Origin: an uncultured Bacteroidales bacterium
Lineage (GTDB): Bacteria; Bacteroidota; Bacteroidia; Bacteroidales; Paludibacteraceae
DNA: 33,903 nucleotides
Assembly (NCBI GenBank): GCA_902782665.1
Contig: CACZOA010000101.1
Coordinates: 1-33,903 of the forward strand
Direction of reading: 5' to 3'
Notes under the pieces: model-generated
What the model was told of the DNA's origin: nothing
The model's input: only the letters and a program-made list of their open reading frames with translations
The model's database searches: none
Made by a program: the position numbers and the translations under genes
Shown here: one piece after another, positions 449 to 18,915 of the stretch
How the letters are laid out: each line of letters begins with the position of its first letter
How positions within the stretch are numbered: position 1 is the first letter of the stretch

Positions 449-2467
449 TCATTTTCCTTTCTTTCTAAACTTGAAGAGTTTCTTAAAGATACTTGGGGTT
501 TCTTCCGCCTCTTCCACGTCATCTTCTTCCTCTGTTGTCACTGATGCTCCTTTCTTCAACATCTTAGCAGCATCTCCGGTAAGCTCGACATTTTTGCAAG
601 ATATCTTTTCTTTCTCTTTTTCCGAAATGATTTCCGCATTCAGCATTCTGCCTGATATTGTGGAGAAATACTGCTCGTAGGAATCACGTAGTTTGCCTTC
701 GTCATCGAAACACCATTTGAATTTCTTCGGACGTGGGATGATCATCGCAAGGTAGATTGCCTCTTCTGCAGTCAGTTTTGACGGTTCTTTACCAAAATAA
801 AACTTAGCTGCCTCAGCCGCTCCATACACATTTGGTCCCCACTCTATCACATTGAGATAGACTTCATACATTCTGTCTTTTGATGTAAGCGCGTTGTTTT
901 CAATCAGCCACACTATCATCGCCTCTTCCGCCTTACGCTGAAGTTTCTTCTCTCGGTTTAGAAATACATTTTTCACAAGCTGCATCGAGATTGTACTTCC
1001 TCCTCTCGCAAATCTCTTTTCCTTGATATTCTTGATCATGCTTTCTCTCAACGCACTTTCCAAAAATCCTCGGTGACGGAAGAAACTTGGATCCTCGCTA
1101 AATAGCACCGCATTTCTCAAGTAGACGGAAATATCATCCAACTTACGGTAGTTTGGATTCGTCTCACTCACCAATATCTTGCGTTGCAGCACGTTCTGAT
1201 CATAAGCTAAATAGGTGAATGTGTCCTGCATCTTCCTGAGGTCGACGTTGCCGAACTTCGTGATCTTGAATCCTGGATACTTTTTCATCGAAGATGCGAA
1301 CTGCAAAGAATCAATATTGTCCATATCAAAACTGAACAATAAATGATAATCTATATCTCCTTCTACTTTTATTCCCTCCAAACTTGGCATCAAACCTCGT
1401 GGAATAGAAGAGAACAAATTATCGGCAGGAAATCTGTCTTTATTAAGTTTGATTGTCAAACCGAAATTGTCTCCTTTGTCGAGTTTCACGTATGGAGAAA
1501 ACTCAAGTTTTTCCAGACGCACCACCGTCGAGCTATCTAATTCTATACTATTCTTGTCGATATTCAAAAGGAAATCCGATGATGGAGAACCGCAATTCAA
1601 TGTCTGTGCGGATAGTCGCTCATGATAGATGGATAGATACTCTGCCGACGCGTTGCCTCTAATCTTAAACAGTCCGGCACTTTCATCTGCGTCTACCGAC
1701 ACCTTTACGAAAAAGATATTCGCGGCTATCTTGGCTCCGTACTTATATTCTATAAATGGTACTATAACTCTTGCTGTATCACTATTGGATTGGATATCCG
1801 CGGTAATTGTCTGATCATTACGCTGATATGTTCCGGTAAGAGACAGGTTCTGGATCTCATGCGTCATCTCCTGACAAATGACATCAGACTCAAACTTATC
1901 ATCCTTAATCTGGAATCTTGGAACGGCAATCTTCGCATAGAAAGAGTCAGACTCGACCGACAAATTAAAATCTGTAAGTGAGAAGCGTTCTGGCATCATT
2001 CTGAAAAACAACCCTGTAGCTTGATTGAATTTTTCGTAAATGCTTTTCTTACTGCCCTGCTCTGCATTTTCAGTCTCAACCTCCACACTATCCGCATCAC
2101 TTCTGTGCGATTTCATCTTATACACAACATCCACTCCAGCAATTCTCAAACTCACCAATTTGAGTTTTTTCTTCATCAAACTGCGTAGCTGGGCTGTCGC
2201 AGTGAGGCTGTCGACGGTAGCGATGGTATCAGTGATGTTTTTATCCGCGTCTACTTTATACAAGGAGATTCCATTGAACGTCATTGAAGAAAGATCATTG
2301 AATTTCAATCCTTCATACTTGACCTGGACTCCGTATTTATCACGGACATCTCCAAGCTCTTTATCCAACACCTTCTTCATGATGGTGTCAGAGAAAATGA
2401 ATACAGCACCGACAGCCAAAGCTATCAGCACAAATATCGTAATTATGAAATACAACAGTTTCTTCAT
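449..2467 (-). CDS. GT51 peptidoglycan glycosyltransferase with AsmA-like N-terminal region
   Basis: This 672-residue protein probably polymerises lipid II into glycan strands on the outer face of the inner membrane. Residues 5-25 form a single membrane anchor. Residues 30 to about 430 are beta-rich and open with an AsmA/TamB-like pattern (VKYEGLKFNDLSSMTFNGIS, then dTiatvdsLta). The GT51 domain follows: SEDPSFFRHRGF with catalytic Glu458, GGSTISMQ at 489-496, RKAEEAMIVWLIE, and YLNVIEWGPNVYGAAEAA before YFGKEP. There is no transpeptidase domain with SxxK/KTG motifs, so it is monofunctional in cross-linking terms but far longer than ordinary MtgA (about 240 residues). The C-terminus is acidic then basic. 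It lies 82 nt downstream of the double-ABC gene on the same strand. GT51 assignment is firm; the AsmA-like label is pattern-based. Confidence 0.9.
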   Translation of the reverse strand: MKKLLYFIITIFVLIALAVGAVFIFSDTIMKKVLDKELGDVRDKYGVQVKYEGLKFNDLSSMTFNGISLYKVDADKNITDTIATVDSLTATAQLRSLMKKKLKLVSLRIAGVDVVYKMKSHRSDADSVEVETENAEQGSKKSIYEKFNQATGLFFRMMPERFSLTDFNLSVESDSFYAKIAVPRFQIKDDKFESDVICQEMTHEIQNLSLTGTYQRNDQTITADIQSNSDTARVIVPFIEYKYGAKIAANIFFVKVSVDADESAGLFKIRGNASAEYLSIYHERLSAQTLNCGSPSSDFLLNIDKNSIELDSSTVVRLEKLEFSPYVKLDKGDNFGLTIKLNKDRFPADNLFSSIPRGLMPSLEGIKVEGDIDYHLLFSFDMDNIDSLQFASSMKKYPGFKITKFGNVDLRKMQDTFTYLAYDQNVLQRKILVSETNPNYRKLDDISVYLRNAVLFSEDPSFFRHRGFLESALRESMIKNIKEKRFARGGSTISMQLVKNVFLNREKKLQRKAEEAMIVWLIENNALTSKDRMYEVYLNVIEWGPNVYGAAEAAKFYFGKEPSKLTAEEAIYLAMIIPRPKKFKWCFDDEGKLRDSYEQYFSTISGRMLNAEIISEKEKEKISCKNVELTGDAAKMLKKGASVTTEEEDDVEEAEETPSIFKKLFKFRKKGK

Positions 2468-2549
2468 GCAACAATCAAATTAAGTTGTAACCCATTCACA
2501 AATACTTGTCAAACGGAAAAGTTCCACCAATTAAGTGAAAAACTTTGAG

Positions 2550-4040
2550 TTAACCTAATTTCTGAATCTCAAAATGTTTTGTGACACAAGACGGAATCTC
2601 CAATTTACGGTGTGTGACGTAAATCAATGTTTTCTCATCCTGAGCCGCATATTTCTCCACAATCTCACGCACACGTCGTTTGTTGGCAAGGTCTAATCCA
2701 TGAAGTGGCTCGTCGAGGATAAGCAGATCCGGATTTTTCACCATCGTTCTGCAGATTAGCACAAGACGTTGCTCTCCACCAGACACTTTCAAGAATGACT
2801 GCTCTGCTAGATGATCTATACCTAAAAGTTTCATCCATTGCAATGCCAACTCATATTGAGCATCCGTAGGAGTACGGAACAATCCGATCGTGTCGAAGAA
2901 TCCTGATGCCACAATCTTCTTGCATGGCTGGTCTTGACGGAAATAAAGATGCATCTCACTTGATATATATCCTATATGACGCTTGATGTCCCAAATACTT
3001 TCTCCTGTTCCACGCTGACGTCCAAACAATCTGATATCCAATGAATAAGCTTTCGGATTGTCTGCAGACAAAAGTGAAAGAAGAGTACTTTTGCCAGAAC
3101 CGTTTTGTCCGGACAAACTCCATTTCTCACCCTTCATAATACGCCAGTTAAGATCCTTGAACAATGTTCTGCCTGGATAAGAGACATTCACATTGGTCAT
3201 ACAGAACACCTCATCAAAATCTGGTTTCGACAACACAGTAGCCTGTAGCTCATCTGTTTTGAACTTACGTGGAGCGAACACCGTCGACCTAAGAGCCGAA
3301 TCGGCAAGATATTTATCCTTTTCAATTCCAGGAAGATATCTTTTATCTTTAACAGGAAGGATATGTGTGGCACAATCTGGGATCTCCTCCTCACTCGGAC
3401 ATGAGAAAATCATCATCTGACCATTTTGAGCAAGCAATGTGAAGAAATCATTGAGTTCCTTCATCATAGCAGGATCAAGTCCGATAAAAGGATTGTCGAC
3501 GAGGAGCAATTGAGGCGCAGAAATCAGTGATTCAGCAATAAGGAAACGACGCAATTCTCCACTGCTCAACATTATGATATGCTTATTGATGATATCGTTG
3601 ATTTTCATTTTCTCCATCAACGACTTTAACAAATCCTCATCAAGCATACGGTTTCCCTTCTTCTTTTCGACACTCATCTTCAACAGTTCACCAACCGTAG
3701 GAGCCAACTCATTATCCTGCGAGTTGAAACGCTGCTGATAATACATGTTGTTGTAGTCGGCAAGTTTATACGCGCTCTCAAAACACATTGTGCGGATCAT
3801 GTCGCTAGCGTACTTGATTCCCTCCGGACGATTGTTTGGATCAAAGAATCCGTATTTCAACTCACCACCACGAATACCGCTTTTACCTGAGATCAGATCC
3901 AAAAGCATTGTTTTGCCGGAACCATTCTCTCCAAGAATACACCAAACCTCGCCAGGTTTGACCTCAAAATTTATGTTATCAGGAAACTCGACTCCCCAGA
4001 TACGAGGAGCGACATCCTTCATTCTTAGTACAAAATCCAT
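2550..4040 (-). CDS. Double ABC ATPase, ModF/PhrA-like
   Basis: This soluble 496-residue protein carries two ABC ATPase domains and no membrane segments. Domain 1 has Walker A GENGSGKT (37-44), signature LSSGE (158-162) and a Walker B reading LLLVDNPFIGLD. There the catalytic Glu after Asp182 is Asn183, and the switch-His region reads IFSCPS with no His. Domain 2 is intact: Walker A GQNGSGKST (311-319), signature VSGGE (419-423), Walker B ILDEP with Glu444, and switch His477 in YVTHRK. The layout resembles E. coli ModF, whose role is poorly defined. No molybdate permease genes are nearby, so a link to molybdate is not supported here. It starts one base after the smpB stop, so the two genes are almost certainly cotranscribed. 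Confidence 0.88.
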   Translation of the reverse strand: MDFVLRMKDVAPRIWGVEFPDNINFEVKPGEVWCILGENGSGKTMLLDLISGKSGIRGGELKYGFFDPNNRPEGIKYASDMIRTMCFESAYKLADYNNMYYQQRFNSQDNELAPTVGELLKMSVEKKKGNRMLDEDLLKSLMEKMKINDIINKHIIMLSSGELRRFLIAESLISAPQLLLVDNPFIGLDPAMMKELNDFFTLLAQNGQMMIFSCPSEEEIPDCATHILPVKDKRYLPGIEKDKYLADSALRSTVFAPRKFKTDELQATVLSKPDFDEVFCMTNVNVSYPGRTLFKDLNWRIMKGEKWSLSGQNGSGKSTLLSLLSADNPKAYSLDIRLFGRQRGTGESIWDIKRHIGYISSEMHLYFRQDQPCKKIVASGFFDTIGLFRTPTDAQYELALQWMKLLGIDHLAEQSFLKVSGGEQRLVLICRTMVKNPDLLILDEPLHGLDLANKRRVREIVEKYAAQDEKTLIYVTHRKLEIPSCVTKHFEIQKLG

Positions 4041-4041
4041 T

Positions 4042-4494
4042 TTATCTCTTCATGTAACGATCGATATCCCTCTTAGCATCCTTCTCCTTGATGCTCTCAC
4101 GTTTGTCGTACTCCTTCTTACCACGTGCCAATGCGATCTCCAACTTGCAAAGACCTTTTTCGTTGATAAACAGCTTTGTAGGCACAATAGTCATACCATT
4201 ATCCTTCACTTCTCTCTGCAACTTGATAAGTTCCTTGCGATTAAGAAGAAGTTTTCTGTCACGACGTGGCAGATGGTTGTTGTATGATCCAAACGAATAT
4301 TCTGAAATGTTCATGTTCTTCACCCATAGCTCATTGTTGCCGGCAAAGAAACAGAAAGTATCCACCAGACTTGCCTTGCCCAAACGGATCGATTTTATCT
4401 CCGTGCCCACAAGCACAATTCCAGCAGTGAATTTATCAACCAGTTCATAATCGAAAGTCGCGCGCTTATTCTTTATAAGCACATCTTTTTTCAT
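4042..4494 (-). CDS. smpB: SsrA-binding protein SmpB
   Basis: SmpB binds tmRNA and delivers it to stalled ribosomes for trans-translation. The protein shows the family's landmarks: [32 protein letters not shown], and [13 protein letters not shown], followed by the basic tail [18 protein letters not shown] that enters the decoding channel. The start is placed at the ATG ending at 4494, giving 150 residues, the usual family length. AGGAAAG lies just upstream of it. A longer form from the ATG at 4521 (159 residues, nine extra residues MGNNKLGKL) is possible. No ssrA gene was recognised in the window. It sits between a Yip1-type gene and the double-ABC gene in one run of minus-strand genes. Confidence 0.95.
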
Positions 4495-4543
4495 CAACTT
4501 TCCTAATTTATTGTTTCCCATATTCTATGTAAAACCTTTCAGT

Positions 4544-5146
4544 CTAAATTTTAGCCAATGCTCCCCACGCCATATATGTAAGAGCATAAATAATGATAAA
4601 TGTAATAAGAGTTGAAGGAAAATGATATTTCCTATCCTCTCCAATAATGTCGACAAAATAAACATTATATCCCGACATTATAATATATGCGGAGTAAAAA
4701 TTTATAAATATCAGCACCGGAAACATGAACGGCAATACCGACAATATAGCGAATGATATAAAAACCAGTATCTCCGCATACGTCATGAATACAACCATAC
4801 GCTCGAAGTCAACCTGTTTTTTTGTCAGAAACTTTAGATAAAATCGTCCGACAAAAGCTGCTATCAGCAGTGAAATAGCAAGGATCACAGGCCATGACAA
4901 TGCGATCAATGTCTCTTCAAGCAAGTTGTAGCCAGAAATATAGAAGTTTTGTACAAGCACTCTCACCAACCCAAGCAGACAGATAAGCGCAAGCAAAGGG
5001 TAAAGCAATCGAGTCTGTGTGTCTGTCCACGTACGTTGCTCGTTCACCACTTTTTCCCATACGCTGTTGGGATCAATAATGAAATCGTAACACTCATGGT
5101 AGAGTGCGACATATTTATTCTTAATTGATTCAAAATTCATTTTCAT
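4544..5146 (-). CDS. Yip1-family multi-pass membrane protein
   Basis: This 200-residue integral membrane protein has a short soluble N-terminus (about 1-45, with FIIDPNSVWEKV typical of bacterial Yip1/DUF1282-type proteins). About five hydrophobic segments follow, at roughly 48-70, 80-105, 118-140, 142-165 and 175-197. Its role is unknown in bacteria; the family is defined by fold and topology. Its ATG overlaps the stop codon of the GSCFA gene by 4 nt (ATGA), which implies translational coupling. No catalytic motif is visible. Confidence 0.75.
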   Translation of the reverse strand: MKMNFESIKNKYVALYHECYDFIIDPNSVWEKVVNEQRTWTDTQTRLLYPLLALICLLGLVRVLVQNFYISGYNLLEETLIALSWPVILAISLLIAAFVGRFYLKFLTKKQVDFERMVVFMTYAEILVFISFAILSVLPFMFPVLIFINFYSAYIIMSGYNVYFVDIIGEDRKYHFPSTLITFIIIYALTYMAWGALAKI

Positions 5147-6135
5147 ACCATTTCAAGTCCACATCTGTTAATTAAATCCATTTTCTCTCTCTTGAAGTCG
5201 ACGTGATATTTTCCAGTCAACTCATTCATATTCATAATCAGTTTGGCGGCGAACTGTTTGGAGTTCGCACTTTGGGGATCAGACATACGATGGTTGACTC
5301 CATCCATTATCTTTTCCACACGTCTCATCAAAGCAATCTGATCTGCAGACATCGTCGTCTCAGAGAATTTCTCGAATATATAATCCACCGCCACAGACGA
5401 CGGATGAAGCATATCCTCTGCATAGAAACGATAATCACGCAAATCATCCATCATGATTTCGTATGACGGAAAATACTCAACCCTCTCTTTGTACTGTTTC
5501 ACAAGTTCATTGATAGCCAGACGCAACGTCGCCTTGCTCAGACTATTTTCATCCAACCCATCACGCAAATGTCTGATCGGGCTCACCGTCATCACAAAAC
5601 TGGCATCAGGATTTGTATCTGCAATCCTATCAATAAGTTTTTTGTAGACGGAAGTGATTTCATCCACAGTCAACAACTCACGCTTGAAAACACCAGCGTC
5701 TTCCTTATGGCAGTTTGCCACCACGAAGTTCTGTTCCTTATGGCGATAAACGAAGGCGGAGCCAAACGTGAGAAGAATGAAATCAGCAGTTTTCAAATAT
5801 TCGTTTGCATCACGGAGTGCGTTGTTGGCATTCAGTATTGTGTTCTGCAATTCTCCTGAAAAATCACTGTGAAGGAGAAAGCTGCGCCATATTCCGTCGC
5901 GACAGAAGAAATCATCCTCATTGAAATAATCAAGATCAAGTGATTTCTCAATCTGCATAGCTATCGAAAGCGGATTGAACGCAATGCCAAGGGGATTAAG
6001 CAACACATCGTATTTGCGATCAAGCAGACGTCTGCCCATCTCTGAAGAGAAGCATGAGCCAAGCGAGACAACTTTACTGTCGTAAGTCATCTTCTTAGCA
6101 AACGGCTTGATATTCACCAAAGTACGAAATTCCAT
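5143..6135 (-). CDS. GSCFA domain-containing protein
   Basis: The N-terminus carries the eponymous motif (VVSLGSCFSSEMGRRL), with further family-typical blocks such as NPLGIAFNPLSI, FILLTFGSAFVYRH and VSPIRHLRDG. GSCFA proteins are related to SGNH/GDSL-type hydrolases: the Ser/Gly near the N-terminus and the late DMLHPS segment with its His fit that fold, but the substrate is not known. The first ATG is at 6135, giving 330 residues (MEFRTLVNI). A TTG-initiated extension to 6159 would begin inside the terminator stem of the upstream gene, so it is rejected. The gene overlaps the Yip1-type gene by 4 nt. Confidence 0.88.
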   Translation of the reverse strand: MEFRTLVNIKPFAKKMTYDSKVVSLGSCFSSEMGRRLLDRKYDVLLNPLGIAFNPLSIAMQIEKSLDLDYFNEDDFFCRDGIWRSFLLHSDFSGELQNTILNANNALRDANEYLKTADFILLTFGSAFVYRHKEQNFVVANCHKEDAGVFKRELLTVDEITSVYKKLIDRIADTNPDASFVMTVSPIRHLRDGLDENSLSKATLRLAINELVKQYKERVEYFPSYEIMMDDLRDYRFYAEDMLHPSSVAVDYIFEKFSETTMSADQIALMRRVEKIMDGVNHRMSDPQSANSKQFAAKLIMNMNELTGKYHVDFKREKMDLINRCGLEMV

Positions 6136-8886: not shown

Positions 8887-8919
8887 GAAAAAAGGGACAG
8901 GTCATTAAAACCTGTCCCT
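8887..8919 (-). terminator. Rho-independent terminator of the NAD salvage operon
   Basis: A ten-base-pair stem (8893-8902 AGGGACAGGT with 8910-8919 ACCTGTCCCT, 7-nt loop) is followed on the minus strand by a run of T residues. It lies about 30 nt past the nadE-pncA stop codon. On the plus strand the following tract is TAAAAATT, so it is directional for the minus strand. Confidence 0.88.
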
Positions 8920-8948: not shown

Positions 8949-10199
8949 TCATTCCACTTTTACATCCAAGCCTTCCCAATCAATTTTAGCGTTCTCATCG
9001 ATTGCGACGGTGCCTGCCTTCTTCACCACAATCTTTGTGTTCGGATGTGTTTTGGCCGTCTCTTTAGCGCAACTCTGCACGCAATAGTCGAAGCACAGAC
9101 CGACAAGATGAAGCTCTTTCACATTGTCGACGTTTGGCAACACATCTATTCCATACTCCTCCACATTCGGATTGCATCCCTTGTTTAATGTGACACTTGG
9201 AATATTTACAGCAAGCAGTTCTGCATCTATCTCCGCACCTTTCTCTCCGGCGACGCAATGGTTTGGCCATGGTCCACCCTGAGGTTTGAAGCTGCAATGG
9301 TTTGTAGGATGCCAATCTTTAGTGTAGACGATGCTGTCGTATTTTTCTTTCTTCATCAAATCAATGATCGCTGCTTTGGCTTTTTTCCACTTTTCCATTC
9401 CCACTCCCATACTGCCATCGATGAAATCTTTCTGTGCGTCGACGATAGCCAACTCCTTCTGGTCTGGCACAAAGCAAGGGAGGTTGAGCAGTTTGCACTT
9501 CCAGCTCATACCGTTGATCTTCTTCTGGATTTTCTGAGCTGTCTCAGGATTCACGTCGTCGAAGAATCCTCTTGCCACCTTCTCCACTTCAGCATAGGTG
9601 AAACCTAGATTATCTTCGTCAGTCTTGCCACACATACCGTCGCTCGGAGCCTTCTTTACCAAATCCTCTGGCAAGCCCAATTCGATTCCCAATCTCACCA
9701 CGTCGCTGACATACAGATTAGCCAACGGAGCAAAATCACCAGCACCGTCGCCCCAGATAGTGAAATATCCCATGAGACGCTCGCTCTTATTGCCATTATT
9801 ACTGATTCTGCAATTACCAATAATCGCTGCCACACCATATAAAGTGGCCATTCTCAAACGAGAAGGAGTGTTTGTCTTGAATTGAGGAGTAGCCTCACCA
9901 GCCGTTTTTGCAGTTATCTCCTGAGCAAGAGCATCGTAAGCACCCTTGATATTCACCTCATAGTTTTTAATACCCAAAAACTCACAAACTCGTTTAGAAT
10001 CATTGATATCCGTCTGAACACCGTTAGGCATCATCACACCTACCACACGATCCTTACCCAAAGCAGCCACACATGCCGCAGCCACTACAGTACTGTCCTT
10101 TCCTCCACTGATACCTATAAGTGCTTTTGTATTCTCGTCACCATTCTTTGCGAAGTAGTCCTTGATCCAGGCTACCATCTGTTCTTTAAGTGTTCTCAT
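8949..10199 (-). CDS. nadE: NAD synthetase-nicotinamidase fusion (NadE-PncA)
   Basis: This 416-residue protein joins two NAD-salvage enzymes. Residues 1 to about 240 are ammonia-type NAD synthetase: the P-loop SGGKDS is at 31-36, with YFTIWGDGAGDFAPLANLYVSD (145-166) and KAPSDGMCGKTDEDNLGFTY (183-202). Residues of about 248-416 are a compact nicotinamidase of the isochorismatase superfamily: catalytic Asp254 (AIVDAQKDF), metal ligands Asp295 and His297 (KDWHP) and His314 (WPNHC), catalytic Lys340 and nucleophile Cys373 (GLCFDYCVQ). Both active sites look complete. No glutaminase domain is present, so ammonia would be the nitrogen donor; nicotinamide deamidation by the second domain itself releases ammonia. 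It is the last gene of the operon after pncB and the Nudix gene. The reading frame is continuous, with no stop or frameshift at the junction. Confidence 0.93.
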   Translation of the reverse strand: MRTLKEQMVAWIKDYFAKNGDENTKALIGISGGKDSTVVAAACVAALGKDRVVGVMMPNGVQTDINDSKRVCEFLGIKNYEVNIKGAYDALAQEITAKTAGEATPQFKTNTPSRLRMATLYGVAAIIGNCRISNNGNKSERLMGYFTIWGDGAGDFAPLANLYVSDVVRLGIELGLPEDLVKKAPSDGMCGKTDEDNLGFTYAEVEKVARGFFDDVNPETAQKIQKKINGMSWKCKLLNLPCFVPDQKELAIVDAQKDFIDGSMGVGMEKWKKAKAAIIDLMKKEKYDSIVYTKDWHPTNHCSFKPQGGPWPNHCVAGEKGAEIDAELLAVNIPSVTLNKGCNPNVEEYGIDVLPNVDNVKELHLVGLCFDYCVQSCAKETAKTHPNTKIVVKKAGTVAIDENAKIDWEGLDVKVE

Positions 10200-10260: not shown

Positions 10261-10812
10261 TTAAATCTTAATTTTCTCGAACATCTCCCAAGCAAGCCTC
10301 ATCATCAAACCAAAATCATCCTGTCTGACAATTGCATCCATGTCTGCCCTTTTCACGATCTCAGTTTCAAGAAACTCATCATCGTCAGGATTGTTTTTGC
10401 CGTAGCCATCCACCACCACATAGTAGCAAGTCATTCGATTCTCCATGAAAGCAGGGTTCGGGCTGCCCGTATAAAGTTGCTCCAGTTTGATGACATTCTC
10501 TTTTTTGATGCCAAGCTCCTCGTCCAATTCACGGTAGAGAGCATCAATAGCCTTTTCTCCGGCGTCCACCATTCCAGAAGGGAATTCCGTGATCTCCCTG
10601 TTGATGCCGTGACGGAACTGCTTGACCATCATGAAATTATCAGAATCAGCACCAAGTCGGACGACAGCACACACCCAATCAGGAGCCTGCATAGATATAT
10701 ATTTGCGTTCCACACCCTTCGGATCGATTTTCTTCGTTGTCACAAAGCTTCCGATCGGTGTTTTCATCACAACCTCTCTCTCCTTTATCTGCCAATTGTT
10801 CATACCATTCAA
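10261..10812 (-). CDS. Nudix hydrolase, ADP-ribose pyrophosphatase-like
   Basis: This 183-residue protein has a complete Nudix box at residues 80-102: Gly80, Glu86, the run RELDEELGI with Arg94, Glu95, Glu98 and Glu99, then Gly101. The preceding VKQFRHGI and EFPSGMVDAGE segments are characteristic of the ADP-ribose/NDP-sugar pyrophosphatase branch. It would hydrolyse a nucleoside diphosphate linked to another group, with Mg2+ bound by the box glutamates. Its position between pncB and nadE-pncA (16 nt and 61 nt gaps) suggests an NAD-related substrate such as ADP-ribose, NADH or NaAD, but this is inference from context. The ATG three codons in (MNNWQIKE) is an alternative start. Confidence 0.9.
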   Translation of the reverse strand: MNGMNNWQIKEREVVMKTPIGSFVTTKKIDPKGVERKYISMQAPDWVCAVVRLGADSDNFMMVKQFRHGINREITEFPSGMVDAGEKAIDALYRELDEELGIKKENVIKLEQLYTGSPNPAFMENRMTCYYVVVDGYGKNNPDDDEFLETEIVKRADMDAIVRQDDFGLMMRLAWEMFEKIKI

Positions 10813-10828: not shown

Positions 10829-12076
10829 TCACATTTCAGCGTGGTTCATTCTCCAGTCGATGGCTCTTTGCAAGTAGTCGACATAGTCTGGATTCTTGCA
10901 CATACCCTTACCAGGAGTGTCAGAAATCTTTGCGACGTCGCCACCATTACAAAGCGTCGTCTTCATCACGATATTAAGCGGTGGCACATCAGTGTCGTTG
11001 GCGATGAATGTGCCGATACCGAATGCTGTCTTCGCTCTTCCCTCGAAATATTTCTTCAGTTTAGTGGCTTTCTCGAAATTCAAGCTGTCGCTGAAGAGAA
11101 GAGTCTTCGTCTTCGGGTCGATGCCAAGTTTCTTATAGTGAGCGATGATCTTATCACCCCACTCGAACGGATCGCCTGAATCGTGGCGGACACCGCTGAA
11201 CACAGTAGCGAACTCCTCGTCAAAATCACGAAGGAAGCAATCAGTAGTGATCGCATCAGTAAGAGCCGTACCGTTCTGCACCTTATACTCATTCACCCAA
11301 GCACGTAGAGAATAAAGATTAGAGTAGGCAGGATTGATTGATCTGTTTCCTTGTCCGACGCACATAATCCATTCGTGAGCCATAGTGCCCACAGGGATAA
11401 GATTATATTTGCGAGCGAGGAAGACGTTGCTTGTACCAACAAAGATAGACTTATTGTTCATCTTTGCGTTTTTCAAAGCCATCACCGCCATCTCCTGACA
11501 TTCAGCAGACAATCTGCGGCGTAGACCAAATTCAGAGAACGCGCCAAGTTCATAGATATCCTGCTCCAAAAGATTCACTTTCTCATCCAGTTTGCGACGG
11601 AATTGTTTCTTCAATTCATCATAATCGTAAGCCATACGGAAATAAACCTCGTTGACGATAGCCAAAGTAGGGATTTCATACATGCTTGTGTTCAACCATG
11701 TTCCTGTCGCCTCGATATTCAAGCCGCATTCAGCATTGTCGTCGATATGGAAATCCTCGAATCTAGGACGCCAGATACGAAGGAAATCAATATAAGAACC
11801 CTTAATCCATCCCTTCTTGACGATGTTTCCATTCTCGTCTTTTCTAGCTCCGATATTTCTCAGATAGCTCAACTCATCCTCCGTAAAAGTAAGTTTACAG
11901 TATTCCTGCAACTGACGTTTGATTTCCTCCACCATCTCAGGAGTGAATTTCACATCCTTGTTACGGCATTTGAAAGTCCAGGTAGTCTTATATCCTGGGA
12001 ACTGGTGGAAAATAGCCTGACCCATAGAGAACTTGTAAAGATCTGTCTCCAGCAGAGATGTAATTATTGTATTCAT
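10829..12076 (-). CDS. pncB: Nicotinate phosphoribosyltransferase PncB
   Basis: PncB converts nicotinate and PRPP to nicotinate mononucleotide, with ATP hydrolysis driving the reaction. The 415-residue length matches the bacterial type. Landmarks are the N-terminus LLETDLYKFSMGQAIFHQFP, the IPVGTMAHEW segment carrying the phosphorylated His, and the PRPP-binding region FSGVRHDSGDPFEWGDK with TLLFSDSLNFEKA. It is the first gene of the salvage operon, read from a near-perfect Bacteroidota promoter at 12113-12143, with the Nudix gene starting 16 nt after its stop. Confidence 0.96.
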   Translation of the reverse strand: MNTIITSLLETDLYKFSMGQAIFHQFPGYKTTWTFKCRNKDVKFTPEMVEEIKRQLQEYCKLTFTEDELSYLRNIGARKDENGNIVKKGWIKGSYIDFLRIWRPRFEDFHIDDNAECGLNIEATGTWLNTSMYEIPTLAIVNEVYFRMAYDYDELKKQFRRKLDEKVNLLEQDIYELGAFSEFGLRRRLSAECQEMAVMALKNAKMNNKSIFVGTSNVFLARKYNLIPVGTMAHEWIMCVGQGNRSINPAYSNLYSLRAWVNEYKVQNGTALTDAITTDCFLRDFDEEFATVFSGVRHDSGDPFEWGDKIIAHYKKLGIDPKTKTLLFSDSLNFEKATKLKKYFEGRAKTAFGIGTFIANDTDVPPLNIVMKTTLCNGGDVAKISDTPGKGMCKNPDYVDYLQRAIDWRMNHAEM

Positions 12077-12368: not shown

Positions 12369-13826
12369 ATGTCATTACAGGCTCAAATATTAAATACATT
12401 GGAAAAATCCCCGAGCATTGCTTTACTCAGGGCAAGAAGATGTAGTCTTATCCTTGACTTTTTGATAGGTATATACGAAAAAGAAACTGCAATTTCATCA
12501 GAAAACATCCATAATCGGTTGGCTGATTATCTAAATGACAATGGAATAGAAAACGATGATGAGAACAAAATAGAATTATCTGACACATATGAAGAGAAGG
12601 CTGTCAAATTTATAAAAACATGGACTGACAGCGGTTTCTTGACCAATTATAAAAACGAGGATGGCGAAATTTATTATGAATTGTCATCGCATACAAGCAA
12701 AGTGATTGATTGGCTTTCTGGTTTAAAGCGTGAAGAATATATTGGTACCGAGTCAAAATTCAAATCGATCATTACCCAACTTAGAGAATTGGTTGAATAT
12801 ACCAACGAAGATAAAGAAAAGCGTTTGCAACTTTTGGAAGATAAAAAACAAGAGATTGAGCATCAAATTCAACGTTTGAAAATTGGTGAAGATGTAAAGG
12901 TTTTTGAAGAATATGAAATTGTTCCGAGATTCAAACAAATCAACAAATTAGCAAAAGAATTATTGTCTGATTTCAAAGATGTGGACGACAATTTCAAAAA
13001 CATTATCAAAGAAATATATCAAAAACAGATTGACCCTACACTCAACAAGGGCGGTATTTTGCAATATACGTTTGATGCTTTGGACGAATTGAAATCAAGT
13101 CCACAGGGCAAAAGTTTTTATGCTTTTTGGGAGTTTCTACTTGCCCATGAAATGCAAAACGAATTGGAAACAATGATTACCGATTTGTTCAAAACATTAA
13201 AAGACAGAAATATAGAAACTAACGACAACTTTCTTGGCAATATGGTTTCTTACCTGTACGAATCAGGCAACAAAGTATATCAGACTAACGACAAAATGGC
13301 GGATAAACTTAGTCGCATTATTCGAGAAAATAACACTTCACGATCTGATATCACCAAGCAAATAATTCAAGACATCAAGAATTTGTTAATTGACATTTCC
13401 AAGGAAAATGGGAAACCTGACATTTCACTTTCAATAGACAATGGTATTGACATAAATATCCCATTCGACCGCAAAATCACTTTCGAGCAATCTGAAAATA
13501 TCGAATATACATTAAAACCGATTTCAAGCGAACTTAATATCAACGACTTGAATGAACTCGGAAAAATATTTGGCAATGTAATTATCGACAAGAAAATACT
13601 TGAACAGAATATCCGCACCGCATTGAGAGATAATGGACAAGTTTCTCTATCTGAAGTAATTGCACATAATCCTTTACAAAAAGGATTACCTGAACTTTTC
13701 GGTTATTTCGGTGTATTGAACCATTTTAAACATAAAACAATAAACGCCGAAAAACAACAGCCTATCGACTTCGATGTAGAACATAAAAAAAGAATACTAA
13801 TCCCCGAAATAATTATTTCAAGATGA
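12369..13826 (+). CDS. jetA: Wadjet protein JetA (DUF3375, kleisin-like)
   Basis: This 485-residue protein opens the four-gene Wadjet cassette. In Wadjet, JetA is the MukF-like kleisin that bridges the JetC heads and binds JetB. The start (LEKSPSIALLRARRCSLILDFL) is the DUF3375 hallmark. A winged-helix-like N-terminal region (about 1-125) is followed by a Glu/Lys/Gln-rich helical stretch (about 130-175). The rest is helical and ends in a region with ELFGYFGVLNHFK, also typical. The identification rests as much on order (DUF3375, DUF4194, SMC-like ATPase, DUF3322/DUF2220) as on sequence. Its stop overlaps the jetB start by 4 nt (ATGA). The composition appears more A/T-rich than the flanking housekeeping genes. 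Confidence 0.92.
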   Translation: MSLQAQILNTLEKSPSIALLRARRCSLILDFLIGIYEKETAISSENIHNRLADYLNDNGIENDDENKIELSDTYEEKAVKFIKTWTDSGFLTNYKNEDGEIYYELSSHTSKVIDWLSGLKREEYIGTESKFKSIITQLRELVEYTNEDKEKRLQLLEDKKQEIEHQIQRLKIGEDVKVFEEYEIVPRFKQINKLAKELLSDFKDVDDNFKNIIKEIYQKQIDPTLNKGGILQYTFDALDELKSSPQGKSFYAFWEFLLAHEMQNELETMITDLFKTLKDRNIETNDNFLGNMVSYLYESGNKVYQTNDKMADKLSRIIRENNTSRSDITKQIIQDIKNLLIDISKENGKPDISLSIDNGIDINIPFDRKITFEQSENIEYTLKPISSELNINDLNELGKIFGNVIIDKKILEQNIRTALRDNGQVSLSEVIAHNPLQKGLPELFGYFGVLNHFKHKTINAEKQQPIDFDVEHKKRILIPEIIISR

Positions 13827-14392
13827 ACGAAATAAAACCATATTCAAAAGCCGTAGTAAACTTATTGAAAAAGACGGTGGAAAAATCATCTCCAGTTTGG
13901 AACGATATTGTCAATTATCAATCTGACATTCAAGAATATCTTTCTGTTATTGGATTAGAGTTGATTGTTAAGGAAGACGAAGGGTTCGCATACATCAAAC
14001 AAATCGTTTTCGATGATGACACCACATTGAATTTGGTTTCAAGGCGGCAGTTAGGTTTTGATATTTCGTTGGTACTTATTGTATTGCGACAAATTTTGGA
14101 AGATTACGACAACAATCCGACAGAAACTCAATCATTCGACAAAATTATTACAAACAATGAAATTAAAGATGAGGTAAAACTTTTTTTGCCAGACAGTTAC
14201 AATAAAGCAAAATTGGAGAAGGATTTAGATCGTTATATTCAAAATGTTTGTGAATTAGGTTTCTTAAAAGAAATCAAACGCAACAACGATGAAATAAGAT
14301 ACAAAATCCACCGTATTATAAAAGAGAAGGTCACACTTCAAGATTTGGATACGTTTAAGAAAAATTTGGAGAAATATGCAGGAACAATATGA
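13823..14392 (+). CDS. jetB: Wadjet protein JetB (DUF4194, KITE-like)
   Basis: This 189-residue protein corresponds to the MukE-like KITE subunit that binds the JetA kleisin and DNA. It shows tandem winged-helix composition: a VNLLKKTVEKSSPVWNDIVNYQ start, the family-typical SRRQLGFDISLVLIVLRQILEDY, then DRYIQNVCELGFLKEI and a terminal YKIHRIIKEKV segment. It has no enzyme motif, as expected. It overlaps jetA by 4 nt and jetC by 17 nt, so expression is likely translationally coupled. Confidence 0.9.
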   Translation: MNEIKPYSKAVVNLLKKTVEKSSPVWNDIVNYQSDIQEYLSVIGLELIVKEDEGFAYIKQIVFDDDTTLNLVSRRQLGFDISLVLIVLRQILEDYDNNPTETQSFDKIITNNEIKDEVKLFLPDSYNKAKLEKDLDRYIQNVCELGFLKEIKRNNDEIRYKIHRIIKEKVTLQDLDTFKKNLEKYAGTI

Positions 14393-17300
14393 CTTATTCA
14401 CCACCGACGCTGGTTCAGCAGGCTACCGACTTGACTATTTTGAAATTTTAAATTGGGGAACGTTCCATAACCGTATATACAGAATTGCGCCACAAGGCAA
14501 CAACTCGTTACTAACAGGTGCCAACGCATCTGGTAAGAGTACGTTGATTGACGCACTTTTGACATTGCTCGTGCCTCTCAAAAAGGACAGATTTTACAAT
14601 CAGTCGTCGGGCATAGAAAAAAAAGGCGATAGAAATGAAGAAACATATGTTCTTGGCAATTACGGCAATATTCAAGCCGAAGGCGAAACCTCTGTGAAAA
14701 CTCAGCAACTTCGCGACAAATCTACATATTCAATAATATTGGCATCTTTTGCCAATAATCATCAAAAAATAGTAACATTATTTCAAATTCGTTATTTTGT
14801 AAACGGTGAACTGAAATGCATATACGGTTTTTCGCATAAACCATTAACAATCGAAAATGATCTTTCAATATTCAATGGTAGCAAAGGCGATTGGAAAAAA
14901 GCATTAGAAAAAAAATACAATGCCAATGCACCTAAACGTCAAATCGATTTTTATGATTCTATCAAGGATTATACCGACCGTTTTGTTAATGCGTTAGGCT
15001 TGCGTTCCAATAAGGCTTTGACGTTGTTCAATCAAATTGTCGGTGTGAAAGTTTTGAACGATTTAGACGAATTTATTCGCAACAATATGCTTGAACAGCG
15101 AGATTCGGAAAACGCATATACCAACTTGAACGAGAGTTTTGCCACTTTAATGGGTGCGAAAACAAAGATTGAAAAGGTCAAAGAGCAAATATCACAGTTG
15201 AAGCCCATTGACCAAAAGGCCAATCAATTGGAAGATATTAAATATGCACTTGACGAATTGCAAAAAAAACGCGAAATGTCGGTTTATTGGTTTGCACAGA
15301 AGAATGTGGAACTTGCCAAAGAAAAAATATCAGAACTCAATACCAAACTTGAAGATTTACAACAACAACTCAATAAACTAAATGAGGAAAAAGAACAATT
15401 AAAAGAAAAAGAGCGTGAACTGTCGTTATCGATAGAAGGTGATGATATTGGTAAGCAAATCAAAGCATTAAGCAACGAAATTGCTAACCTCGAAAAACAA
15501 AAGATTAACCGACAAAACAAACTTGAAGACTATAACAATAAAGTCATTGAAGTGGGTTTGCCCGAAAATCCATCGGAACAAGTATTCTCTGATAATCGAG
15601 AAAAAGCACGTTTGGCAAAGACAGAATGTCAGTCTGAGTATGATAATAAACAAGAGGATTTACGTTTGACTAAAAACAAAGCCGACGAAATAAATGAGGC
15701 CATTAAAAAAAATATGTCAACTCTTGAAATTATCCATAAGAACAAAAATAACATTTCGGGTCGAGAGGCAGAGATTCGGGAAATGATTTTGCAAGCGACT
15801 GGAGCTACAACTTCCGAAATCCCATTTATAGGAGAGCTCATTCGAGTAAAGGAAAGCGAAAAGACTTGGGAAAACACCATCGAAAAAATCCTACACAATT
15901 TTGCTCTAAGATTGATTGTTCCTGACAAATACTATAAGACAGTGAATCAATTTGTCAACTCCAAAAATCTAAATGGACGAATTGTTTATCAACGTTACAA
16001 AGAGACAGCATCACTGAAAGGATTTCAACACAGAGAGATGGCAGACAATTGTCTGCCAAACAAATTGGAATTTAATACAAAAAGTCAGTATTATGAATGG
16101 GTGGAAGATATAATTTACGAAAATTATAACTACACCTGCGTTACCAACTTAGAGGAATTTGACAAATACGCAGAAAAGACGGCCACAATGGAAGGCTTAA
16201 TAAAATCAGTAAACAACAAACACGAAAAAGACGACCGCAAGCATATCAACAGCCGAGAAAATTACATTTTAGGTTGGGAAAATAAAGAGAAAATGGCCTC
16301 TATACGTGCCACAATTAAATATTTACAAGACGAACAAAAGCAAAACACAAAAAGCATTCGCGAAATAGAGACTGCCAAAACAGCAATTGCTAAACGTAAA
16401 GAGTGTTTCGATTACATTTTCAATGTTTTCACCAAATATGACGACATTAATTGGGAGGAATACGCCCAAAAAATACAGAAAAAAACAGAAGACAAAACCA
16501 AATTGGAAGCCGCTAACGACAAGGTTAAGGCGTTGCAAGAGCAATTAAATGTTGTGAAGAAGGAGTTGTTAAAATTGGAAAAAGATACAATTCCGGCAAA
16601 GAATGAAGACATATATAAAATTAAAAATGTTGATATTGCTAATGCAAACAAACGCATTTACGAAAATATAGCATTGCTCAATAAGTTGGGCAATGTCGAT
16701 GTGTCTTCATTTGAATCCGAAAATTCACAATGGCTTGTTGTCGATTATAGTAATATCGAAAAAATGCAAAATAGTTTTCTATCAGAAATTGCACAGCAAG
16801 ATACAGCAAAGAAAAATGCAAAAAGCCAAATAGAACAAGAGGTTGCCACATTGATAAGGAAATTCAAAAACCCGTCGGAAGACATTACAAACAAATTCAA
16901 GGATTGGCGTTCAGACGTGCATACTCTGCCAGAAGCCGAAAATATACATCTTATAAGTGAGTACCAAAAGTTTTATAATCGTTTGGTTAACGAGGATTTA
17001 GTTCGTTTTGAAGATCAATTCAACAATTACCTACAGGAAACTGTAACAAATAAAGTTTCTGCTTTCAGAATGTTTTTTACCAATTGGGAAAAATCCATAA
17101 AAGAAACTATTGATATGCTTAATAAATCCCTAAAAGAGATTGATTTCAGCACATCACCTTCAACCTACATTCAACTTGAGAATACAAAAAAAATCAACAA
17201 TGACATTGCCGAATTTCGCAAAAAATTAGATGACGCAATACCAAATATACGAGAAGTAAATTCCAACATTGACGGCAGACGCCATCACTTTGAGACAAAA

Positions 17301-17798
17301 ATTCAACCTCTTATTGCCAATCTTCAAGATGAAACATGGCGAAAAAAAGTAATGGATGTTCGTAATTGGTTTTCATATAAAGCCGAAGAGTATTACAAAG
17401 AAACGGAGCAAAAGCACAAAACATATCAAAGTATGGGTCAACTGTCTGGCGGAGAAAAAGCACAACTCACATACACAATTTTAGGTTCAGCAATTGCTTA
17501 CCAATTTGGGCTCACAAAAGACGGACTACAAGCTAATTCGCTACGATTTATAGCTATTGATGAGGCATTTAAGGCACAAGACGAGGATAAAGCACGTTAT
17601 CTGATTTCGTTGTGCAAACAATTGCACCTGCAATTATTAGTAGTAACTCCAAGCGACAACATTCACATTGTACAAGATGACATTTCATTTGTCCATTATG
17701 TTGAACGCAATGGTAATGAATCGCGAATTTTCAACATGACAATACAACAATTCAAAGAAGAACGAGATAAATATCAAGCCGATGATAACACCAACTGA
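14376..17798 (+). CDS. jetC: Wadjet protein JetC (SMC/MukB-like ATPase)
   Basis: This 1140-residue SMC-like ATPase powers DNA loop extrusion in the Wadjet complex. Walker A is GANASGKS (48-55) near the N-terminus. Two long coiled-coil arms occupy roughly 265-470 and 640-1000, separated by a hinge-like globular region (about 480-640). The C-terminal head half carries the signature LSGGE (1023-1027) and Walker B FIAIDEAF with Asp1062 and Glu1063. All ATPase residues look intact, and the length is in the range of JetC proteins. It overlaps both neighbours by 17 nt (jetB at 14376-14392, jetD at 17782-17798). A RecF/SbcC-like repair ATPase is excluded by the gene order. Confidence 0.95.
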   Translation: MQEQYDLFTTDAGSAGYRLDYFEILNWGTFHNRIYRIAPQGNNSLLTGANASGKSTLIDALLTLLVPLKKDRFYNQSSGIEKKGDRNEETYVLGNYGNIQAEGETSVKTQQLRDKSTYSIILASFANNHQKIVTLFQIRYFVNGELKCIYGFSHKPLTIENDLSIFNGSKGDWKKALEKKYNANAPKRQIDFYDSIKDYTDRFVNALGLRSNKALTLFNQIVGVKVLNDLDEFIRNNMLEQRDSENAYTNLNESFATLMGAKTKIEKVKEQISQLKPIDQKANQLEDIKYALDELQKKREMSVYWFAQKNVELAKEKISELNTKLEDLQQQLNKLNEEKEQLKEKERELSLSIEGDDIGKQIKALSNEIANLEKQKINRQNKLEDYNNKVIEVGLPENPSEQVFSDNREKARLAKTECQSEYDNKQEDLRLTKNKADEINEAIKKNMSTLEIIHKNKNNISGREAEIREMILQATGATTSEIPFIGELIRVKESEKTWENTIEKILHNFALRLIVPDKYYKTVNQFVNSKNLNGRIVYQRYKETASLKGFQHREMADNCLPNKLEFNTKSQYYEWVEDIIYENYNYTCVTNLEEFDKYAEKTATMEGLIKSVNNKHEKDDRKHINSRENYILGWENKEKMASIRATIKYLQDEQKQNTKSIREIETAKTAIAKRKECFDYIFNVFTKYDDINWEEYAQKIQKKTEDKTKLEAANDKVKALQEQLNVVKKELLKLEKDTIPAKNEDIYKIKNVDIANANKRIYENIALLNKLGNVDVSSFESENSQWLVVDYSNIEKMQNSFLSEIAQQDTAKKNAKSQIEQEVATLIRKFKNPSEDITNKFKDWRSDVHTLPEAENIHLISEYQKFYNRLVNEDLVRFEDQFNNYLQETVTNKVSAFRMFFTNWEKSIKETIDMLNKSLKEIDFSTSPSTYIQLENTKKINNDIAEFRKKLDDAIPNIREVNSNIDGRRHHFETKIQPLIANLQDETWRKKVMDVRNWFSYKAEEYYKETEQKHKTYQSMGQLSGGEKAQLTYTILGSAIAYQFGLTKDGLQANSLRFIAIDEAFKAQDEDKARYLISLCKQLHLQLLVVTPSDNIHIVQDDISFVHYVERNGNESRIFNMTIQQFKEERDKYQADDNTN

Positions 17799-18915
17799 TA
17801 TAAAAAAGAAAGCCGAAAACAAATACACAACTTATTTACAGTCAATCGTTGAAGACATTCCTTTTCAACCAATTGAAATTATTGGTGATAAAAAACCCAA
17901 TAATGACACCAATAAGTTCGAACAAGAGTTGACTGAATTGATCAATCACTCGAAAGAGAAAAAAGGATATGGTTATTTCGTTAAATATCAAAAAATTAAA
18001 ACCAAACAACATGGGGAGCAAGATATTCCAACATCCATAAGTTTTAATACTGAATCCGACTATTTGAAATACATTAGTAAAGAAAAAGAAACGGCAAAAT
18101 TCAAAAATGACATTGCTGACATATTTGCCTCATTTCCAGAATTGAAAAATTGGGTCTGTAAATATCCAAGCAAGGTTATAGAAAATGATTGGAAAAGTTT
18201 GCTGAAAGTTTGTAAGTATTTTAGAGACACACCCAAACCGCAACTTTATATCCGAGAATTGCCCATAAATGTTCATACCAAATTTATTGAAAAAAATAAG
18301 GGCATTATCAAAGAGTTGCTTGACATTATTATCGCTGATTATATCAATGGTGAGGAAAAAGTTTTTGAAATCAGGTTCAATCTCAAATTCGACGAACCAA
18401 GTATTCGATTTAGAATACTAGACAAAAATGTCAGTCAATCATTGTTCAATGATCTAACAGATCTAAGTGTTCCAGTCAGTCAATTCCAACGACTAAACAT
18501 ACCCATTAAAACCGTATATATAGTAGAAAACAAAATAAATATGCTAACATTTCCATTGAGAAATGATAGTATTGTTATTTGGGGACACGGATTTGGTATA
18601 GAAGTTTTGAAAAATGTAAAATGGCTCAATAGTAAACATATTTATTATTGGGGAGACATTGACTCACAAGGTTTTGAAATTTTATCACAAGTAAGAACCT
18701 ATTTTCCTTCGACCATAAGTTTTATGATGGATAAAGAAACATTTGAACTCTTTAACGAAAAAGACAAAGGCACGAAATCAAATGTGACAACAGATTTGAA
18801 GTTAACGAAAGAAGAACAAGAACTATACGATTATCTTAAAACAAATGATTTAAGATTAGAACAAGAAAAAATTCCTTTTGAATACGCAAACAAAAAAATT
18901 TTTCAAATTAACTAA
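17782..18915 (+). CDS. jetD: Wadjet nuclease JetD (DUF3322/DUF2220, Toprim-like)
   Basis: This 377-residue protein is the DNA-cleaving subunit, related to the topoisomerase VI/Spo11 Toprim fold, that cuts small closed circular DNA held by JetABC. The N-terminal half (DUF3322) contains the family-typical FPELKNWVCKYPSKVIEN and YIRELPINVHTKFIEKNKG. The C-terminal DUF2220 has the Toprim acidic set: Glu249 in YIVENKIN, and Asp292 and Asp294 in GDIDSQGFEIL. The catalytic acidic residues appear complete, so the nuclease is predicted to be active. Its ATG overlaps jetC by 17 nt. The 94-nt stretch after its stop holds nothing recognisable before the palindromic repeat at 19010. Confidence 0.94.
   Translation: MITPTDIKKKAENKYTTYLQSIVEDIPFQPIEIIGDKKPNNDTNKFEQELTELINHSKEKKGYGYFVKYQKIKTKQHGEQDIPTSISFNTESDYLKYISKEKETAKFKNDIADIFASFPELKNWVCKYPSKVIENDWKSLLKVCKYFRDTPKPQLYIRELPINVHTKFIEKNKGIIKELLDIIIADYINGEEKVFEIRFNLKFDEPSIRFRILDKNVSQSLFNDLTDLSVPVSQFQRLNIPIKTVYIVENKINMLTFPLRNDSIVIWGHGFGIEVLKNVKWLNSKHIYYWGDIDSQGFEILSQVRTYFPSTISFMMDKETFELFNEKDKGTKSNVTTDLKLTKEEQELYDYLKTNDLRLEQEKIPFEYANKKIFQIN

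Follow-up and report, generated by a model that had tools for sequence, protein, structure and literature searches.

A rare NadE-PncA fusion protein in one family of Bacteroidales: a probable bifunctional enzyme of NAD salvage

Nicotinamidase (PncA) and NAD synthetase (NadE) appear to be encoded by one gene in the DNA analysed here, a stretch of 33,903 nucleotides from an uncultured Bacteroidales bacterium of the Paludibacteraceae (hereafter the window). This raises the questions of whether the join is real, where it came from, and what a cell would gain from it. According to PMC3376133, single-domain NadE uses ammonia and the two-domain form is a fusion with a glutaminase. The protein of the window resembles glutamine-dependent NAD synthetase, as described in PMC3376133 and PMC6946656, in that an ammonia-freeing domain is joined to the synthetase, but its donor domain differs from the nitrilase-type glutaminase in family, in the side on which it is attached and in the amide donor.

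The fused gene and its neighbourhood

The continuous 416-residue frame described in a sequence-only reading of the window was confirmed as a single open reading frame with an ATG start, encoding 416 amino acids on the minus strand (8949-10199; Table 1). With hmmscan, the NadE half matches PF02540 (NAD_synthase) over residues 6-216 (E = 2.3e-48; 164.9 bits against a cut-off of 21); it passes TIGR00552 (nadE; 154.2 against 63.65) and falls under the narrower model NF010587 (174 against 255). The PncA half matches PF00857 (Isochorismatase) over residues 252-380 (hmmscan, E = 7.8e-7; 29.8 bits against 27) and 1ilw with phmmer at E = 7.5e-20. It scores far under the cut-off of the NCBIfam nicotinamidase/pyrazinamidase equivalog NF008623 (50.9 against 174), as do the free PncAs of loci L061 and L101 (37.0 and 68.6). 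No nitrilase-type glutaminase domain was found in the protein by Pfam scan.

Table 1. Coordinates of the NAD salvage genes, domains and hairpin in the window
Feature	Coordinates	Strand	Remarks
pncB, nicotinate phosphoribosyltransferase	10829..12076	-	first gene of presumed operon
NUDIX hydrolase	10261..10812	-	best NCBIfam match NudE, 48.3 bits, under cut-off of 169
nadE-pncA fusion gene	8952..10199	-	416 codons; stop 8949-8951
NadE domain, residues 1-246	9462..10199	-	P-loop SGGKDS 31-36; Glu140, Asp151 kept; Val164
PncA domain, residues 247-416	8952..9461	-	Asp254, Lys340, Cys373; Asp295, His297, His314
Terminator-like hairpin with T tail	8893..8919	-	about 30 nt past the fusion stop

The active-site residues that the sequence-only reading had named are all in place. 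The PncA triad and metal ligands align with those of solved nicotinamidases and are unchanged in 20/20 distinct fused homologues, and the P-loop lies where it had been read, the motif SGGxDS and the acidic pair Glu140/Asp151 being retained in all 20 as well. We take this PP-loop and the two acidic residues to be functional NadE residues. Compared with single-domain ammonia-dependent NadE (PF02540/TIGR00552; 2e18, 1nsy), the fusion shares family, fold, P-loop, Glu140/Asp151 and the lack of a glutaminase, but adds a C-terminal PncA, a lysine in the P-loop, a valine where the LYK motif has its lysine, and a loop of the PSDGMCGKTDE type. With nicotinamidase PncA (PF00857; 1im5/1ilw, 3pl1) it has in common the Asp-Lys-Cys triad, the Asp-His-His metal site and the DWHP and GGPWP-HC motifs, whereas unlike free PncA it lacks a start of its own, is joined at residue 247 and has a low score against the curated nicotinamidase model. 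The fusion joins two apparently intact salvage enzymes.

In both the alignment and the structure model the end of NadE runs directly, without a linker, into the first PncA strand. The junction is predicted to be ordered in model A2, for which NadE rows were added (blocks of residues 231-260 at pLDDT 84, 90 and 83; pLDDT 86.7 and pTM 0.77 overall, against pLDDT 79.4 in the preceding model A1). By fold, the model is closest to NH3-dependent NadEs, with 2e18 the top match of the NadE half in both sequence and fold; rank 2 in Foldseek is 3fiu, titled as the NMN synthetase of Francisella tularensis.

The NUDIX gene lies 61 nt upstream of the fusion and pncB 16 nt beyond it on the same strand, and the three look like an NAD salvage operon with the fusion as its last gene. 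The hairpin is weak evidence by itself, since the region has two such sites against 2.9 expected in shuffles. At the corresponding place in another fusion neighbourhood, L026, the NUDIX hydrolase is missing. Divergent from the operon, on the plus strand, lie the Type I Wadjet genes JetA1, JetB1, JetC1 and JetD1 (window 12369-18915), presumably a plasmid-defence operon. An association of the fusion with defence was rejected: L026, the only further fusion neighbourhood listed gene by gene, has no Wadjet genes beside the fusion, and we therefore treat them as chance neighbours.

Occurrence and origin of the fusion

A survey of the window's family covered 358 genomes: 41 gave a match at 1e-8, and 20 carry the full-length fusion in one stop-free frame, namely seven of the nine genomes of the window's genus (g1), twelve of genus g27 and one of genus g6. 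The 20 proteins, whose start codons were set to match that of the window protein, are distinct and, aligned alone, occupy 416 columns with zero gaps, at pairwise identities of 68-100% in NadE and 61-99% in PncA. Both halves are under purifying selection, dN/dS being 0.004-0.174 in 23 of 26 domain comparisons (13 pairs, both domains; the other three were not estimable). In the diverged pairs L001/L011 and L008/L011, dS reaches 2.1-2.7 in NadE and 1.7-1.9 in PncA with dN of only 0.05-0.11, and synonymous change so near saturation with so little replacement excludes chance and recent sequencing error. The concern that homologues would all prove to be split and the join an assembly error is thereby put aside: nothing was found in favour of such an artefact, and with the fusion present in 20 species-level genomes and with some pairs almost saturated at their synonymous sites, we reject it as virtually impossible.

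A contig search with six peptide patterns, which reaches close relatives only, gave seven fused loci out of 47, all in Bacteroidales records. Across 395 genomes of the phylum the window's own genome was alone in being fused among the matches listed, beyond which a fusion with a low score may lie. One-frame NadE-PncA was listed in none of 245 genomes of the Treponema ruminis family (71 match at 1e-20), 299 from the family to which the Lachnospiraceae genome G778 belongs (37 at 1e-30) and 398 genomes of the phylum of G778 (82 at 1e-30). No plasmid record out of 231 covers 80% of the fusion query; a single phage record of 52 reaches 90%, but as two genes, and the matches of the five IMG/VR loci are confined to the NadE half. 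The sequence-only reading had not counted the pairing among the commonly described architectures and had proposed a domain-architecture survey across Bacteroidales; within the searches made the fusion is rare, with fused homologues in only three genera of one family and none listed for the Treponema-family and Lachnospiraceae-family genomes. Distant, independent NadE-PncA fusions may exist elsewhere. As to whether the fusion is already well described, none of the open-licence PMC papers found by search describes one in its title or abstract; it is a real, conserved fusion of known enzymes, undescribed in the literature that could be searched.

Other NadE fusions were sought in ten Bacillota regions, opened for their long NadE frames or odd matches. 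In seven of them (L184-L190; 390-431 aa) the N-terminal part of the frame starts SACLLG; the two that were scanned, L184 and L190, contain a 2-thiouracil desulfurase (PF04463), and none carries PncA. In L142, from a Lachnospiraceae search genome, PncA is joined to a GNAT acetyltransferase and not to NadE (2456-3466), while L064 and L172 match both halves, yet as two separate genes. The second NadE of genome G355 (contig C113; L099, 3295-4440) is a 382-aa frame in which NAD_synthase spans 113-368, and the approximately 110 residues ahead of this domain match no Pfam family.

The origin of the fusion was examined with a NadE tree of 79 rows, built by a quick method and leaving out the truncated L064, and a PncA tree of 44 rows, both of which gave long-branch warnings; L064, L015 and L112 were omitted from some trial alignments, and conservation at the N-terminus of PncA was read from A1 and the PncA tree data. 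The fused rows fall together as a single clade in the NadE tree (SH-aLRT 93), next to a sister group of four Treponema/Spirochaetaceae NadEs (98; join 99). They are again one clade in the PncA tree (100/99), grouped with six Treponema-family PncAs (95/94), and the internal order of this group is weak, the branch that places the fused rows beside five of the six related free PncAs having only 86/73. Both trees give a single origin, in which neighbouring salvage genes appear to have fused once only, and we infer transfer from a Treponema relative. Four of the nearest free PncAs (L144, 4344-4940; L145; L146; L147) start, by eye, with a signal-peptide-like stretch and so may act outside the cytoplasm.

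Operons of the Treponema family, of the form pncB-nadE(-pncA), hold the same NadE clade and pathway genes as the fusion, but as separate genes. In L027, L029 and L030, pncB overlaps an unfused nadE; L141 has pncB, nadE and a NadD-like gene under its cut-off; and L140 has pncB, nadE, pncA and NrtR in this order, the sole pncB-nadE-pncA operon of this unfused kind that was found. The domain order of the fusion is the gene order of L140. The L140 PncA belongs to a different PncA branch from the fused one, and the exact ancestor of the fusion was therefore not found. A Lachnospiraceae operon (pncA-prs-NAMPT-like-nadE-NrtR) likewise has the same NadE clade and pathway genes, unfused. Two genomes without the fusion, G007 (g1) and G355 (g27), carry unfused pncA, PRPP-synthetase-like, NAMPT-like and nadE genes, and in a further one, G005 (g1), the 358-genome family survey found neither the fused nor the unfused form.

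The active site of the NadE clade

The fused NadE has Val164 where the other NadEs compared have the lysine of an LYK-T motif, which we take to be Lys186 of B. subtilis, a residue outside the curated criteria of the family. This lysine is absent from 20/20 fused proteins, from all 48 unfused bacterial members of the clade (chosen at >44% identity to the window NadE) and from eight of nine phage rows (seven distinct sequences), 76 of 77 rows in total, whereas 33/33 NadEs from outside the clade have it. Conversely, a lysine at the variable position of the P-loop (x of SGGxDS) occurs in 77/77 clade rows and in 0/33 outside. Six further clade rows agree and were excluded from the 77 because they had been picked by a motif containing the P-loop lysine; all five solved NadEs that were aligned have the LYK lysine and none has that of the P-loop. 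The pattern suggests that the P-loop lysine replaced the lost LYK lysine in its role, as judged against an outside set drawn nearly all from one phylum (31 NadEs of other families of the window's phylum, its own genome's glutamine-type NadE and one from the Pelagibacteraceae). The phage NadE of L175 (171-917) has both lysines, as expected of an intermediate.

The clade spans Bacteroidota, Spirochaetota, Bacillota and phage records. Gut phages (L174, Phage Phass-1, 1459-5897; L172, MT835544, 1065-6312) carry pncA, PRPP-synthetase and NAMPT-like genes with a NadE of the same clade. A small gene ahead of nadE in L172, L180 and L098 is macrodomain-like, with weak Pfam scores (19.8 against 22 in L180, none in L098). 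On a 233 kb IMG/VR viral contig (L177, 3484-6562; also L178 and L179), genes for a cytidylyltransferase, nadE, pncB and pncA are adjacent and perhaps form a whole nicotinamide-to-NAD salvage cassette; thymidylate synthase, dCMP deaminase and DHFR genes lie nearby.

In genome G013 (99% complete) the fusion is the only clear NAD_synthase match (159 bits); the next, at 32 bits, is GMP synthase, besides two of 19-20 bits. T. ruminis (G776, a single contig as long as a complete genome) and G777 each have one clear NAD synthase, an unfused NadE of the clade. For 13/13 genomes of genus g8 (78-96% complete), the matches listed included no larger NAD synthase of approximately 100 bits. Working NAD synthetases are thus very probably to be found within this clade. 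The best weak NAD_synthase match of G015 has 24.3 bits (C67), its C1 match being GMP synthase.

Proposed function and competing explanations

We consider it likely that the protein is a bifunctional salvage enzyme that arose through a single fusion event between two adjacent genes. In the proposed pathway: 1) the C-terminal half would convert nicotinamide to nicotinate and ammonia; 2) PncB, encoded two genes upstream, would make nicotinate mononucleotide; 3) the NadD of the cell would make nicotinate adenine dinucleotide (NaAD); and, 4) the N-terminal half would form NAD from NaAD, ATP and free ammonia. Both activities, and NaAD as substrate, are predicted from sequence. The benefit of the join would most likely be production of the first and last enzymes at a fixed 1:1 ratio, rather than a private ammonia route. 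This bifunctional reading draws on the intact domains and residues, the purifying selection, the pncB operon, the unfused gene orders, the single fused clade of both trees, the NadD of G000 and the lack in G013 of any other clear NAD synthase or isochorismatase-family protein; counted against it are the low NF008623 score, the missing LYK lysine, the branch of the L140 PncA and the long-branch warnings of the trees.

An alternative is that ammonia freed at Cys373 reaches the NadE half, of the same or a partner chain, unmixed with the bulk, which we regard as unlikely. The equal nitrogen balance speaks for it, as do the gap-free, linker-free alignment of the 20 fused proteins at 416 columns and the modelled order of the junction, and ammonia tunnels are known in glutamine-dependent NadE (PMC6946656). 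Contrary to the reading preferred above, alignment without a gap over 20 species and order at the junction would be compatible with a rigid contact between the domains that has a function. However, the donor domain is C-terminal to the synthetase and of another family than the nitrilase-type glutaminase, and unfused relatives of both halves exist. A second NAD synthase, in a larger frame of 640-671 aa, is present in 13 of the 14 fusion genomes looked at (the exception is G013), which counts against a need for the fusion; the separate 671-aa enzyme of G000 is of the glutamine type (PF00795 with PF02540; NF002730 at 820.5 against 473). Animal gut habitats, which the record titles of several relatives name, are moreover rich in ammonia. 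The unfused pncB-nadE-pncA operon of L140 means that gene neighbourhood accounts for the fusion without a hand-over, and 1:1 release and uptake of nitrogen, while sound chemistry, is no evidence of coupling. It is quite improbable that the amidation feeds itself, with ammonia from the PncA half passing to a NadE half whose phosphate site has been re-built around the P-loop lysine and the nicotinamide nitrogen being kept; no other amidotransferase-like enzyme is known to us that draws its ammonia from the first substrate of its own pathway.

NMN synthetase activity of the NadE half, or an acceptor other than NaAD, is very improbable. The second-ranked fold match (3fiu) and the clade-specific changes in conserved motifs would suit such an enzyme, but the best match in both sequence and fold is an NH3-dependent NadE (2e18), and the clade members that are sole clear NAD synthases in G013, G776 and G777 should make NAD. 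The Francisella-type NMN synthetase, furthermore, acts on NaMN and goes with NadM in place of NadD, whereas the NadD of G000 clears its NCBIfam cut-off (149.1 against 112.45); this genome also carries nadA. We give very little credence to one half being catalytically dead and regulating the other: the weak PncA family score and the lost LYK lysine would agree with this, against which the named triad, metal and P-loop residues are conserved in 20/20, dN/dS is low for both halves, and no isochorismatase-family protein other than the fusion was found in any of the four fusion genomes searched (G000, G013, G034 and G354).

If the replacement of one lysine by the other is confirmed, there may be two modes of ATP phosphate handling among NAD synthetases. 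The fusion itself puts the first and last steps of NAD salvage on one chain, and offers a clean test of whether ammonia derived from nicotinamide can be reused in place.
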